NCBI GenBank assembly: GCA_016938735.1 | Contig: JAFGUB010000032.1 | Span: 1-64,000 of the forward strand | DNA length: 64,000 nucleotides | Reading direction: 5' to 3' | From: Campylobacterales bacterium | GTDB taxonomy: Bacteria > Campylobacterota > Campylobacteria > Campylobacterales > Sulfurimonadaceae | Shown here: in pieces, positions 48,619 through 53,476 of the stretch | Numbering within the stretch: the first letter of the stretch is position 1 | How the letters are laid out: the number at the start of each line of letters is the position of its first letter | Position numbers and translations under genes: made by a program | Notes under the pieces: model-generated | Told to the model about the DNA's origin: nothing | Database searches by the model: none | What the model saw: the letters and a program-made list of their open reading frames with translations, nothing else

Positions 48619-50169
48619 ATGTACGTTATGAGCATTGATGCAGGTACAGGCAGCATTCGTGCGGTTGTTTTTGATCTTGGCGGACGACAGCTCGGTATCG
48701 CTCAACAAGAGTGGCACCATTTCAGCGAACCTGGGGTGGCGCACTCCATGAGCTTTGATTGCAAAGCAAACTGGCAGATCGCATTAGCGTGTATCGTGCA
48801 TGCAATCGCGGATGCACGGATCGATGCCAAACAGATCAAGGCGATCAGTGCTACGAGTATGCGCGAGGGAATCGTGGTTTATGACCGCGAAGGAGAGGAG
48901 CTCTTTGCACTGGCGAACGTCGATGCCAGAGCGGGGGCGGAAGTGGCGTGGATCAAGCAAGAGTATCCCGAGTTAGAGCGGCACTTTTATGAGCGTAGCG
49001 GGCAGACATTGGCACTAGGGGCGCTGCCGCGGCTGCTGTGGCTGAAGCGTCATCGCCCCAAGCTCTACGAAAAGGCCGCATGGGTGCACATGATCAGTGA
49101 CTGGGTACTCTATAAACTCAGCGGCGTCTTCACATCCGAACCCTCCAATGCCGGAACGAGCGGCATCTTTTCGCTCAAGGAGCGTCGATGGGATGCCGCG
49201 ATGGCGTCGCGGCTTGGGCTGAAAGACGATATCTTTCCCGAGGTGGTAGAGAGCGGCAGCGTTATCGGCACCTTGCGTCCGGATGTGGCGGATGTGACGG
49301 GTTTGGATCCGCAAACCAAAATCGTCGCAGGCGGCGGGGATGTGCAGCTGGGCAGCGCGGGGCTTGGCGTGGTGCGCCAGGGTGAGTGCGCCGTACTGGG
49401 CGGCAGCTTTTGGCAGCAGATTGTCAACATTGAGGGTGCCACGGTTGATCCGACCATGAATCTTCGCATCAATCCGCATGTGATTAAGGGCCTCTCTCAG
49501 GCTGAGGGGATCACCTTTTTTTCTGGGATCGTGATGCGCTGGTTTAGAGACACCTTTTGTCAGGAAGAGCGACGCGAAGCCGAGCGTCTAGGCGTGGATG
49601 TCTACAGCTATCTTGAGTCGCTCGCCGCTGCGGTGCCGGTTGGGTCGTATGGGATCGTGCCGATTTTTTCCGATACCATGAAGTATGGCCGCTGGTATCA
49701 CGCCGCCCCTTCATTTTTAAACCTTTCGCTGGAGACGACGAGCAAAGCGGCGATGTTTCGCGCACTTCAGGAGAATGGCGCGATGGTGTCGATGTTCAAT
49801 CTCGAAGCGGTCTTTGCCCTCACGCAGACGCAGCCTCAAACCATCACCTTTGCGGGCGGTGGGGCCAAAGGAGCACTTTGGGCGCAAATACTTAGCGACG
49901 TCACCGGACGAGAGGTGCGCATACCCCGCGTCATCGAGGCGACGGCGCTTGGCGGTGCAATGGCAGCTGCGGTGGGGCTTGGGGTGTTTGCCGATCTGGT
50001 TGAGGCGTCGCAAGCACTGGTGGCGTGGGAGCGCACTTATAGCCCTGATGGGCAAAACCACCGGCTCTATCAAGAGGTGGCACAGCGGTGGCGTAGGCTT
50101 TATGATGCCCAGCTCGCATTGGTTGATCAAGGCTTGGTGGACTCTATGTGGAGGGCACCTGGAGTATAG
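48619..50169 (+). CDS. lsrK: Autoinducer-2 kinase (LsrK-like, FGGY family)
   Basis: A 516-residue FGGY carbohydrate kinase that aligns along its whole length with enteric LsrK as I recall that sequence. Shared blocks include IDAGTGSIRAVVFDL, SMREGIVVYD, NVDARA, SGQTLALGALPRLLWL, MISDWVLYKLSG, GGGDVQLG, GLGVVR, AVLGGSFWQQIVN, NPHVIKG, MRWFRDTFC, PIFSDTMK, WYHAAPSFLNLS, TFAGGGAKG and a closing VDQGLVDSMWRAPGV. LsrK phosphorylates AI-2 (DPD), trapping it in the cell. ATG 48619 is embedded in TTACATGTAC and has AAGGA 6 bases upstream. luxS, an LsrG-like gene and an aldolase lie within 3.6 kb. Confidence 0.92.
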   Translation: MYVMSIDAGTGSIRAVVFDLGGRQLGIAQQEWHHFSEPGVAHSMSFDCKANWQIALACIVHAIADARIDAKQIKAISATSMREGIVVYDREGEELFALANVDARAGAEVAWIKQEYPELERHFYERSGQTLALGALPRLLWLKRHRPKLYEKAAWVHMISDWVLYKLSGVFTSEPSNAGTSGIFSLKERRWDAAMASRLGLKDDIFPEVVESGSVIGTLRPDVADVTGLDPQTKIVAGGGDVQLGSAGLGVVRQGECAVLGGSFWQQIVNIEGATVDPTMNLRINPHVIKGLSQAEGITFFSGIVMRWFRDTFCQEERREAERLGVDVYSYLESLAAAVPVGSYGIVPIFSDTMKYGRWYHAAPSFLNLSLETTSKAAMFRALQENGAMVSMFNLEAVFALTQTQPQTITFAGGGAKGALWAQILSDVTGREVRIPRVIEATALGGAMAAAVGLGVFADLVEASQALVAWERTYSPDGQNHRLYQEVAQRWRRLYDAQLALVDQGLVDSMWRAPGV

Positions 50170-50217: not shown

Positions 50218-50547
50218 ATGAAAAGCAAAACGGGTGCCATTGACACCCTCTTCGCGTTTGAACCTTTGCGTCGGCGCCAAATTGCAGCGTTACAGCAAGA
50301 GTTCTACAGGCAAAAATACAAGCAAAAACGTCCTTTGGCGCCTTTAGTAGAGGCAGAAGTGCTTATTCCGGTGATGCAACCGATTGAAGAAAATGATGAG
50401 GGTTATATTGCCGGATTGGTACGCACCCACAAAGAGATCGACAAACGACGTCAAACCAAAGGCCCGCTCCCCTCAGCAGATGAAAAAGTGATACGTGAAA
50501 TGATGGAAAACGCCGCAGCGCTTGGCTGCGCACGTAAAAAGCCTTAA
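50218..50547 (+). CDS. Small basic protein downstream of lsrK, unknown function
   Basis: A 109-residue, Lys/Arg-rich, mostly helical protein (KSKTGAIDTLFAFEPLRRRQ at the start). No family was recognised. AAAGGAAACCC precedes the ATG. It follows lsrK by 48 bases and converges on the LsrG-like gene with a 4-base overlap. It may be co-transcribed with lsrK. Confidence 0.6.
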   Translation: MKSKTGAIDTLFAFEPLRRRQIAALQQEFYRQKYKQKRPLAPLVEAEVLIPVMQPIEENDEGYIAGLVRTHKEIDKRRQTKGPLPSADEKVIREMMENAAALGCARKKP

Positions 50548-50840
50548 AACGGTTCCCCGAGAATAAGCAGGTTTTCCGTAAATTTCTCGGCGGTATGCGG
50601 TTCGTAGTGTGATTTGTAATGGAGGTAGTGCTTGGAGTGCTTATGGCCCTCAAGTGCCGCCTCATCCTCCCATGCCTCAATCACGATAAATCTTTTCGGA
50701 TCGCTCTCGATCTGATAGATATTGTATTTCAGACACCCCTTTTCCGCGCGCGAAGGCTGCACCATCGCTTCAAGCAGGGCCTTAAGCGGCGCTATGTGCC
50801 CCTCTTTGGCGACAAATGTAACTTTTTTAGTGATATTCAT
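50544..50840 (-). CDS. LsrG-like antibiotic-biosynthesis-monooxygenase-fold protein
   Basis: A 98-residue ferredoxin-like ABM-domain protein: VTFVAKEGHIAPLKALLEAM, then EKGCLKYNIYQ, FIVIEAWEDEAALEGHKHSKHY. Enteric LsrG, which isomerises phospho-AI-2, is a protein of this fold and size. The sequence match is at the family level only, so the LsrG assignment rests on the adjoining lsrK and luxS. ATG 50840 follows GGAGG by 6 bases. It starts 10 bases after the aldolase stop, forming a two-gene operon. Another ABM function is possible. Confidence 0.7.
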   Translation of the reverse strand: MNITKKVTFVAKEGHIAPLKALLEAMVQPSRAEKGCLKYNIYQIESDPKRFIVIEAWEDEAALEGHKHSKHYLHYKSHYEPHTAEKFTENLLILGEPF

Positions 50841-50850
50841 AACGTTCCTC

Positions 50851-52020
50851 CTATTTTTTAAGTTTAGCCTGTTCGAGTTCCCAATACTCCATCGCAAAGA
50901 GCTGCGGCGGCCTTAGGCTCGTAAAGCCGCCGAGCGCTTCTGCGCGGAGCATCGAGAGGGCGGTGTGTTCTATGATATCGGCAATCACGGCGCTCTCTTT
51001 GGCGTCTTTGCCAAACACGACAGCGCCGAATCCTTTAATGAGCGCGTAGCGTGGCGCAGGGTCTAAGCGGTGGTGGTGCGTTTGGGCATGTAGGTCGAAA
51101 TAGTGCTGATAGGCGCTGACAAAGTGGTAAATACCCTCTTCGATGGAGTGTTCAATCAAAGCCGGAAAAGGTTTAATGCGGATGACGTGCTCAGGCGTGA
51201 GGCCGCCGCTATGCACGATGCGCTCAAGCGTAGGATGGTTTGAGAGCGTACAGAGGGCGGGACTTGAGAGCGGCACGGCCTCAACCGCGCAGCCGCGCAA
51301 CTGCGAGACCTTGAAGCGGAGTGCTTCGAGCCATGCGGGATCGAGCGTTTTGGGCTTACATGTAAGCTCAAGCGGGGCGTGTGTTTGAAGGTACGTTTCG
51401 GCTTTGGTGACGATATCGATCATTTTGCCATAGGCTGCCTGCGCGTCGTCATCGAAAGTAAAGACACCGTGGTGCATCAAAATGATCCCATCTAAGGTGC
51501 TCCAATCGATCCCCTGTGTCCGATCAAAGACGTGTTTGGCCAGATCAAAGCCCGGCATCACATAATCAATGATGAGCATCCGCGCACCGTAGAGTGTGCG
51601 CAGGCGCTCTTTACCGTTGTGCGTATTGGAGATCGTCACCACCGCGTCGGCATGGGTGTGATCAACGAAGTCAAAAGGGATGATCGCGTGCAAAATGGCT
51701 TCGATCGAAGGGTTGGGTGCCTGTGCGTCGCGCATCGCTTCACGCTGCAGACGCACCATCTCACTGTCGCTGAGGGTGTGAAACGAGGCCATGTGGATCA
51801 AGGAGTCCAGATGCACGGGGGCAAAACCGCCTTTTTCGATAGTGTCTAGGTTCCAGCCGCTCCCTTTGACATAGAGGGTGTCGCCGATCTTGACCGAGGT
51901 GTTGCCGCCGCCGTGGAGTACCAGATCGCTCTCGCTGCCCAGCAGTCTGGAGGTGTAGACGCGCAGTTCAAGCGGATCCCTGAGCGTCGCGGCGTATGCG
52001 GGATCGAAACGGTTGTGCAT
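50851..52020 (-). CDS. Class II aldolase (RhaD/fuculose-phosphate-aldolase-like domain)
   Basis: A 389-residue class II aldolase/adducin-fold protein. The phosphate loop region is LHGGGNTSVK (about 35-44), the catalytic Glu is in PSIEAILH (Glu107), and zinc ligands are His121, His123 (DHTHAD) and His183 or His184 (MHHGVFTF). An extra C-terminal region (about 220-389) continues without a dehydrogenase domain, unlike the large bifunctional RhaD-type proteins. ATG 52020 has AAGG 6 bases upstream; TTG 52038 is less likely. With lsrK and an LsrG-like protein beside it, it could cleave phosphorylated AI-2 products in place of LsrF. A separate sugar-phosphate role is the alternative. Confidence 0.8.
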   Translation of the reverse strand: MHNRFDPAYAATLRDPLELRVYTSRLLGSESDLVLHGGGNTSVKIGDTLYVKGSGWNLDTIEKGGFAPVHLDSLIHMASFHTLSDSEMVRLQREAMRDAQAPNPSIEAILHAIIPFDFVDHTHADAVVTISNTHNGKERLRTLYGARMLIIDYVMPGFDLAKHVFDRTQGIDWSTLDGIILMHHGVFTFDDDAQAAYGKMIDIVTKAETYLQTHAPLELTCKPKTLDPAWLEALRFKVSQLRGCAVEAVPLSSPALCTLSNHPTLERIVHSGGLTPEHVIRIKPFPALIEHSIEEGIYHFVSAYQHYFDLHAQTHHHRLDPAPRYALIKGFGAVVFGKDAKESAVIADIIEHTALSMLRAEALGGFTSLRPPQLFAMEYWELEQAKLKK

Positions 52021-52182: not shown

Positions 52183-52698
52183 ATGCCGTTATTAGACAGT
52201 TTTACCGTCGATCACACCCGCATGTCCGCCCCCGCCGTACGCAAGGCCAAAACCATGACCACCCCATCGGGTGACACCATCACCGTTTTTGATCTGCGCT
52301 TTTACAAGCCCAATGAAGAGAAGATGACAGGCAAAGGTATCCATACGCTTGAACACCTCTTTGCCGGATTTATCCGCAACCATCTCAACAGTGATACGGT
52401 AGAGATCATCGACGTCTCACCCATGGGGTGCCGTACCGGTTTTTACATGAGCCTCATCGGCGCTCCGGATGAAGCGCAGGTGGCGCAGGCGTGGAGTCAA
52501 GCGATGGAGGACATCTTGGCGGTCGAGAAGAAAAAAGATATTCCTGAGCTCAATATCTACCAGTGCGGTACTTATAAAATGCATTCGCTCAAAGACGCCA
52601 AGCAGATCGCCCGCGACATGCTCAAGCAGCCCATCGGCGTGATGGACAACGAAGCCCTCAAGCTCGATGAGGAGCTGCTCGAAGGAGTCTGCGGATGA
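52183..52698 (+). CDS. luxS: S-ribosylhomocysteine lyase (AI-2 synthase)
   Basis: A 171-residue LuxS. The metal site is His54 and His58 in HTLEH plus Cys128 in [10 protein letters not shown]; Glu57 is the catalytic base and Cys83 (MGCRTG) the second catalytic residue. The enzyme splits S-ribosylhomocysteine into homocysteine and DPD, the AI-2 precursor, in the activated methyl cycle. The promoter and palindromes lie immediately upstream, and the stop overlaps the next gene by 4 bases. Confidence 0.96.
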
Positions 52699-52997
52699 GG
52701 TTGCTGCTGCCGATGGACGGCGACGACGCGGAGGAGTCGCGACTGGTGGCGCTCGCCGATGTACAGCGCTGGGCAGTGCTGGAGATCGAAGAGGGGCAGG
52801 TGCGCGAGAGCCTGTTTGTAGAAGATCGAAGCGCGATCGAAGAGGGGGCCGATGCGGTGGTGGTCTGCAGCGACAACGAATACGTATGGCCCTTTTTGGA
52901 TGAGCAGATGATGGTGCTCGTCGCCCATACCCAGCGCAGTATCGATGATATCGTCGAGGCTTATCTGTTTCGAGAGCTGCACGAATTGGCCTACTGA
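52695..52997 (+). CDS. Acidic protein, possible NifX/NifB-type (dinitrogenase cofactor-like) fold
   Basis: A 100-residue acidic protein. The alternation [24 protein letters not shown].. then a segment [17 protein letters not shown] weakly recalls the small NifX/NafY/FdhD-associated fold, but no diagnostic motif is seen. It overlaps luxS by 4 bases and the next gene by 1 base. It is probably co-translated with LuxS. Confidence 0.5.
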
Positions 52998-53476
52998 TGG
53001 AGGCATTGCTTACCCTCTTTAACCCGCTGCCCGGTAACCGCTATCTGCTCACCACCACCCACACTGACGCTTTGGTGACGCTGCTGGCACAAAAGCTGGC
53101 TGCAGCGGGCGGTGCATTACATGTAATCACTTATCCGGGTGAACATCTTCCTATAACCGATGCGCATTTACAACAAAGCGCTATCGGCGATTTTGCCACG
53201 CTCTTTCGCGCCCTGCCGCGTGAACACGATTTTGTGATCTTGCAAGAGCTCTACAGCCGCCATGCCTACAGCGAGCGGTTGCTACGCCACTGCTACACCA
53301 CGCTGGCCAATACCGCTTACGTGCTGATTATCGAACCCAAAGGGCGCTGCGACCCTCAAGCGCTCTGCGAGACGCTGGAGCGGCTGGAGTTTCGCGTCCC
53401 CAATGTGATTGATGTGCTTGAGGGTTTTGACGTGGTGATGGCCAAGAAGATGCATATGTGGGGCAACGGGCTTTAG
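52997..53476 (+). CDS. Hypothetical protein, Rossmann-like pattern
   Basis: A 159-residue protein with alternating beta and alpha segments (RYLLTTTHTDALVTLLAQKLAAA at the start; LHVITYPG; DFVILQELYSRHAYS; AYVLIIEPKG). The strand order resembles a methyltransferase- or P-loop-like Rossmann fold, but no SAM or nucleotide motif is present. Third gene of the luxS unit (1-base overlap). It converges with DUF3137 over 4 bases. Function unknown. A TTACATGTAA copy at 53117 encodes Leu-His-Val. Confidence 0.6.
   Translation: MEALLTLFNPLPGNRYLLTTTHTDALVTLLAQKLAAAGGALHVITYPGEHLPITDAHLQQSAIGDFATLFRALPREHDFVILQELYSRHAYSERLLRHCYTTLANTAYVLIIEPKGRCDPQALCETLERLEFRVPNVIDVLEGFDVVMAKKMHMWGNGL

Follow-up and report, generated by a model that had tools for sequence, protein, structure and literature searches.

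The class II aldolase encoded at 50851-52020 of the window (the whole 64,000-nucleotide stretch of DNA analyzed) is proposed to be the terminal C-C-cleaving enzyme of a salvage pathway for the universal bacterial signal autoinducer 2 (AI-2; DPD) that uses LsrK but not LsrF. We put the probability of this reading at roughly 0.7; the substrate, the role of the ABM-fold partner protein, and the product are all inferred. In the enteric route, as cited in PMC7828210, LsrK converts DPD to P-DPD, LsrG converts P-DPD to P-HPD, and LsrF yields DHAP and acetyl-CoA. What becomes of AI-2 in bacteria that lack LsrF? The same source states that its fate is undetermined. The initial annotation had raised the aldolase as a possible substitute for LsrF, and the genomic co-occurrence test described below supports this idea, while the enzyme activity itself remains an inference. 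No earlier link between LsrK and a class II aldolase was found in the open literature searched, a search outside which most subscription papers fall. The proposal names a concrete enzyme, its partners, and a likely substrate for AI-2 disposal in LuxS bacteria that have no LsrB importer. If it is true, LsrK and luxS can work together as a unit for metabolic salvage, and the task of a CoA-dependent thiolase can fall to a class II aldolase.

The aldolase gene and its surroundings

The features of the locus are as follows, with the parts of the aldolase given after its gene.

48619..50169, plus strand: lsrK, autoinducer-2 kinase (NF008187, 799 bits against a cut-off of 528; 52% identity to E. coli LsrK)
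50218..50547, plus strand: 109-aa ORF between lsrK and the ABM gene (no Pfam or NCBIfam match; a relative only in locus L001)
50544..50840, minus strand: ABM-fold protein, 98 aa, proposed P-DPD isomerase (Pfam ABM, 64 bits; travels with the aldolase and lsrK)
50851..52020, minus strand: class II aldolase, 389 aa, tandem aldolase fold without an SDR domain, proposed LsrF substitute (ORF, Pfam, NCBIfam, and structure)
51364..51990, minus strand: predicted N-terminal catalytic class II aldolase domain, residues ~11-219 (structural alignment with VIA-align)
51700..51702, minus strand: Glu107 codon, putative catalytic acid/base by analogy to FucA Glu73 and DrdA Glu76 (invariant in 49 sequences)
51652..51660, minus strand: His121 and His123 codons, putative metal ligands (invariant in 49 sequences)
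51469..51471, minus strand: His184 codon, putative third metal ligand (invariant in 49 sequences)
50854..51357, minus strand: predicted C-terminal degenerate aldolase-fold domain, residues 222-389 (AlphaFold2 model, structure matches, and full-length profile match to fusion families)
52183..52698, plus strand: luxS, S-ribosylhomocysteine lyase, the DPD source (Pfam LuxS, 196 bits; NF002602, 306 bits against a cut-off of 197)

The aldolase ORF starts with an ATG at 52020 and its stop codon ends at 50851; on the plus strand, stops interrupt this interval. Pfam Aldolase_II (PF00596) matches residues 21-211 with 78 bits. Four residues, Glu107, His121, His123, and His184, are unchanged across 49 relatives and correspond to the catalytic Glu and the three His ligands of class II aldolases. 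The retention of Glu107, His121, and His123 had been noted from the outset and holds throughout this set. The third ligand had been written as His183/184, of which only His184 is invariant, position 183 being mostly Asn in the relatives. On the basis of its predicted fold and these metal and Glu residues, the protein is assigned to the class II (metal-dependent) aldolases; aldol cleavage activity is inferred.

The rest of the protein had been described as a C-terminal extension of about 170 residues that sets it apart from the large dehydrogenase-fused enzymes. The extension does exist (residues ~220-389), but it is not a difference from the fusions, which carry it too. The AlphaFold2 model of the whole aldolase is confident (pLDDT 93.5). 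In VIA-align comparisons, its N-terminal domain (model residues 11-219) reaches a Z score of 31 against the solved structure 3m4r and of ~18 against FucA and DrdA, with Z to class II aldolases spanning 17-31 in the structural comparison. When the last 168 residues were modeled alone, a check that the initial annotation had suggested, they again gave a confident fold (pLDDT 88.8), for which the best matches, with Z 9-11, come from class II aldolases and from chains resembling adducin. Because of these matches, and because the fusions have the same domain, the modeled C-terminal part is most plausibly a second aldolase domain, degenerate in character, that stand-alone and fused enzymes have in common. 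A novel C-terminal domain is thus ruled out. The internal duplication is visible only by structure, profile-profile comparison of the two halves being weak (hhalign E 0.06). By inference only, the second domain may help to complete an intersubunit active site. Over its entire length (residues 1-389) the stand-alone protein matches profile positions 1-400 of the bifunctional aldolase/SDR model NF006196 (430 bits); it therefore amounts to the whole aldolase half of the fusion family, lacking only the SDR. The absence of a dehydrogenase domain, also part of the original description, is borne out by this alignment, the 389-aa protein stopping after the aldolase half.

The gene for the ABM-fold protein lies 10 bp downstream of the aldolase gene on the same strand, consistent with the single operon that had been supposed for the aldolase and an LsrG-like gene. 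This pair is flanked by lsrK, which runs convergent to it, and by luxS, which is divergent from the aldolase. Its score over the curated equivalog cut-off marks the window kinase as a genuine LsrK. The resemblance of the ABM protein to LsrG is confined to fold and position, and its isomerase role is inferred: it scores 33 bits against the LsrG model NF007791, under the cut-off of 135, and has 28% identity to E. coli LsrG, with which it shares the ABM fold family. The 109-aa ORF overlaps the end of the ABM gene by 4 bp and is probably outside the pathway core. Directly downstream of luxS are two further plus-strand ORFs, at 52695-52997 (100 aa) and 52997-53476 (159 aa), neither of which has a convincing Pfam or NCBIfam match. 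Both are kept beside luxS in about 30 Campylobacterota loci, and the 100-aa ORF also adjoins luxS where luxS is away from lsrK (L137 and L138).

Distribution of the aldolase and LsrK

The genomes sampled were 249 from Campylobacterota and 63 from the Hydrogenovibrio family. The whole gammaproteobacterial class, when sampled for LsrK, gave a single genome, and the narrower family was taken instead; enteric and clostridial genomes are outside the sample. In Campylobacterota, with LsrK counted as present over its curated cut-off and the aldolase at >360 bits, LsrK is found in 26 of 249 genomes. The aldolase is found in the identical 26 and in none of the remaining 223. The chance of identical sets is ~10^-35 if the genomes are assumed to be independent. 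Inside five genera (g2, g10, g33, g44, and g50) some members carry the two genes together and others lack both, so the pattern is not one inherited event. In the Hydrogenovibrio family, LsrK is present in 6 of 63 genomes, and the aldolase gene adjoins lsrK in all 6. One extra genome there, G470, has the aldolase, on a contig that ends inside the aldolase gene. Every sampled LsrK genome thus carries the aldolase in stand-alone or fused form.

Do these genomes have LsrF as well? In the Campylobacterota genomes, the matches to E. coli LsrF were all partial and never exceeded 35 bits, with no LsrF ortholog in the window's genome, and there was no LsrF match in the six LsrK genomes of the Hydrogenovibrio family or in G470. 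Co-occurrence with lsrK in genomes lacking lsrF was the test that the initial annotation had itself set for its idea, and the idea passes it in Campylobacterota (26/26 versus 0/223) and in a second phylum (6/6). LsrB is likewise absent from 27 LsrK-positive genomes, apart from one partial match of 19 bits. LuxS is present in all 26 Campylobacterota genomes with LsrK, but this says little alone because LuxS is common in the phylum (208/249). It was also present in 13 of 13 further genomes tested and in 0 of 12 genomes that have a fused aldolase without LsrK. The six LsrK genomes of the Hydrogenovibrio family likewise all encode LuxS. Overall, the evidence linking the aldolase to the LsrK pathway is strong, and in the sampled genomes with LsrK and without LsrF the aldolase is so far the leading candidate for the missing AI-2 breakdown enzyme, an activity that is inferred.

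The local arrangement of the genes was compared across the 80 closest loci in named genomes, 59 stand-alone and 21 SDR fused. At least one of lsrK, the ABM gene, and luxS lies near 51 of the 59 stand-alone aldolases and near none of the 21 fused ones. Taken separately, within the DNA fetched, lsrK neighbors 37 of the 59, the ABM gene 44, and luxS 36. For six stand-alone loci without lsrK nearby, a true LsrK is encoded elsewhere in the genome. Several gene orders occur (luxS-aldolase-ABM-lsrK, ABM-aldolase-lsrK, and aldolase-lsrK), which speaks against a gene block that has simply been conserved. In a quick tree, the stand-alone and fused forms are split by one branch with a weak support of only 63. 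In the LsrK genomes G200, G210, and G234, no ABM gene was detected in the vicinity of lsrK or of the aldolase gene.

Two other gene products were observed at such loci. A 125-aa Cupin_2 protein travels with lsrK (for example, L132:4074-4451 and L152:9829-10206). It lies beside lsrK in several Campylobacterota, and in Hydrogenovibrio the order is cupin-aldolase-lsrK, with the cupin in the place of the ABM gene; further Cupin_2 loci are L082, L083, L005, L136, L008, L011, L104, and L111. This protein is a candidate isomerase that replaces or helps the ABM protein. A gene for a HAD-family (SerB-like) phosphatase is located directly upstream of aldolase-lsrK in L049 (201-821) and L131 (1524-2117), loci of the Sulfurovum type in which no ABM gene was detected.

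Substrate, mechanism, and competing explanations

What would the aldolase cleave? A retro-aldol reaction on phospho-AI-2 or its isomer had been thought conceivable. A plain retro-aldol cleavage of P-DPD does not fit because its C2-C3 is a 1,2-diketone, a judgment made from the structure and not from any measurement. The sensible substrate, by inference, is the isomer P-HPD (via the hydrated ketone) or a reduced form of P-HPD. With its phosphate placed first, P-HPD is CH2OP-CO-CHOH-CO-CH3, or 4-dehydro-5-deoxypentulose-1-phosphate. It is therefore the 4-keto analogue of 5-deoxyribulose-1-phosphate, the substrate of the class II aldolases of the DHAP shunt, which convert CH2OP-CO-CHOH-CHOH-CH3 to DHAP and acetaldehyde (PMC6079011). 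In the mechanism described for DrdA, Glu76 acts as the acid/base and the DHAP enediolate is held on the metal (PMC6079011).

The postulated pathway would run as follows. (i) LuxS would make DPD from S-ribosylhomocysteine. (ii) LsrK would phosphorylate DPD to P-DPD. (iii) The ABM-fold partner, in its inferred role, would isomerize P-DPD to P-HPD (3-hydroxy-2,4-pentanedione-5-phosphate). (iv) The aldolase would cut P-HPD, the inferred substrate, between the hydroxymethine carbon and the acetyl group, with the metal bound by His121, His123, and His184 holding the DHAP enediolate and Glu107 serving as the acid/base. Cleavage of the hydrated 4-ketone (a hydrolytic retro-aldol or retro-Claisen reaction) would give DHAP and a two-carbon product without any need for CoA. 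That product would probably be acetate, given that a hydrated ketone would leave in place of an aldehyde. No precedent was found for a class II aldolase that cleaves a beta-diketone. Since there is no LsrB, the DPD consumed is more likely the cell's own LuxS by-product than an imported signal, though another importer is not excluded.

The inferred salvage function must be weighed against other uses of the same fold. An identity as a rhamnulose- or fuculose-1-phosphate aldolase of sugar catabolism has little more behind it than the family names of the relatives (TIGR02632, which the protein matches at 185 bits, far under the cut-off of 568). It falls under every curated rhamnulose and fuculose cut-off, no sugar isomerase or sugar transporter is among the neighbors, and the adjoining kinase scores 799 bits as LsrK and only 74 as a rhamnulokinase. 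On cut-offs and neighbors this identity, very improbable as it stands, is rejected. A reductive route is another alternative. The beta-ketone of P-HPD would first be reduced to 5-deoxypentulose-1-phosphate by a dehydrogenase encoded elsewhere (the SDR in the fusions), after which an ordinary retro-aldol cleavage, the usual reaction of the family, would give DHAP and acetaldehyde. In Campylobacterota, moreover, the aldolase-SDR fusion is confined to LsrK genomes and takes the place of the stand-alone form there. We nevertheless regard this route as unlikely, given that no SDR gene is linked to the stand-alone aldolase in the window or at most loci and that fused forms exist in genomes without LsrK or LuxS.

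Equally doubtful is the possibility that the aldolase acts on 5-deoxyribulose-1-phosphate or 5-methylthioribulose-1-phosphate in the DHAP shunt and that it is linked to lsrK only indirectly. Outside the LsrK set, its nearest relatives are fusions, and 13 of 25 fused loci have an MtnA-family neighbor. In the Campylobacterota loci L106 (136-4396), L110, and L114 the order is mtnK-mtnA-aldolase/SDR, and in L106, which was checked, MtnK scores 488 bits (cut-off 275) and MtnA 417 bits (cut-off 279). The combination mtnK-mtnA-aldolase corresponds to the DHAP-shunt genes (PMC6079011, PMC10986504), and the aldolase of these three operons is a two-domain, dehydrogenase-fused enzyme, unlike DrdA/Ald2. 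Active-site residues are identical in stand-alone and fused enzymes. Only three columns separate the two forms, none of them known to be catalytic, and no substrate switch can be read from the sequence. The shared active site would fit a common recognition of the DHAP half, with the leaving group left open. MtnA is over its cut-off in 11 Campylobacterota genomes. Five of these have LsrK with the fused aldolase only, and these are all of the fused-only LsrK genomes; 2 have the stand-alone form (G199 and G221); and 4 have no aldolase, which counts against the shunt reading. Against it too, MtnA is absent from 19 of the 21 LsrK genomes with the stand-alone form, including the window's genome (G000), and the stand-alone gene is linked instead to lsrK, the ABM gene, and luxS. 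LsrK, in turn, is absent from all 20 fused-aldolase genomes outside Campylobacterota, as is LuxS from all 12 of those 20 that were tested. Because of this distribution of MtnA, LsrK, and LuxS, we associate the stand-alone form with LsrK and the fused form with the DHAP shunt. If the salvage reading is right, the fused enzyme must do the job in the five LsrK genomes that have no other aldolase. Several points count against salvage. No activity is known for the aldolase or its fused relatives, the ABM protein falls short of the LsrG cut-off and is missing or replaced by a cupin at some loci, and the proposed cleavage lacks a known precedent. Activity on 5-deoxyribulose-1-phosphate cannot be excluded because the same active site occurs in the fused forms, which sit with mtnA (and with mtnK in Campylobacterota).

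Relation to known systems

The closest solved structure is the Thermoplasma acidophilum protein 3m4r (40% identity over 203 residues, Z 31), whose function is unknown and of which the N-terminal class II aldolase domain alone was solved. LsrF, the 3-hydroxy-2,4-pentanedione-5-phosphate thiolase of the enteric lsr operon, would occupy the same place as the window protein in the proposed pathway, after LsrK and an LsrG-type step, with DHAP as one product, and it too is of aldolase fold by descent. However, LsrF is described as a CoA-using, class I-like TIM barrel that has a Schiff-base lysine (PMC2728841, PMC7828210), whereas the window protein is a predicted metal-dependent class II aldolase with a different fold and no sequence relation to LsrF. 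The locus also differs from the Lsr quorum-sensing system in having no lsrB and no known lsr regulation.

With the aldolase/SDR fusions (PRK08324 groups, NF006196; RhaD-ADH, TIGR02632), the protein shares full-length homology over the aldolase half, including the degenerate domain, and the same active-site residues. It differs from them in having no SDR domain and in being tied to lsrK and luxS rather than to mtnK and mtnA. DrdA/Ald2, the 5-deoxyribulose-1-phosphate aldolase, has the same class II fold (Z ~18 to 6btg) and arrangement of metal and Glu residues. DrdA is nevertheless a single domain of ~210 aa with 21% identity to the window protein in the structural alignment, and the genomic partnership of DrdA/Ald2 with MtnA (and MtnK or MtnP) is not met by the window aldolase, there being no MtnA in its genome. 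One broader speculation, which we hold only tentatively and at somewhat less than even odds, is that LuxS bacteria without LsrB and LsrF possess a transport-free “DPD shunt” made up of LsrK, an ABM or cupin isomerase, and the tandem class II aldolase. It would convert DPD to DHAP and acetate by hydrolytic retro-aldol cleavage, and LsrK would serve in it as a housekeeping kinase of carbon salvage and not of signaling. Such a pathway would parallel the DHAP shunt for 5-deoxyribose.
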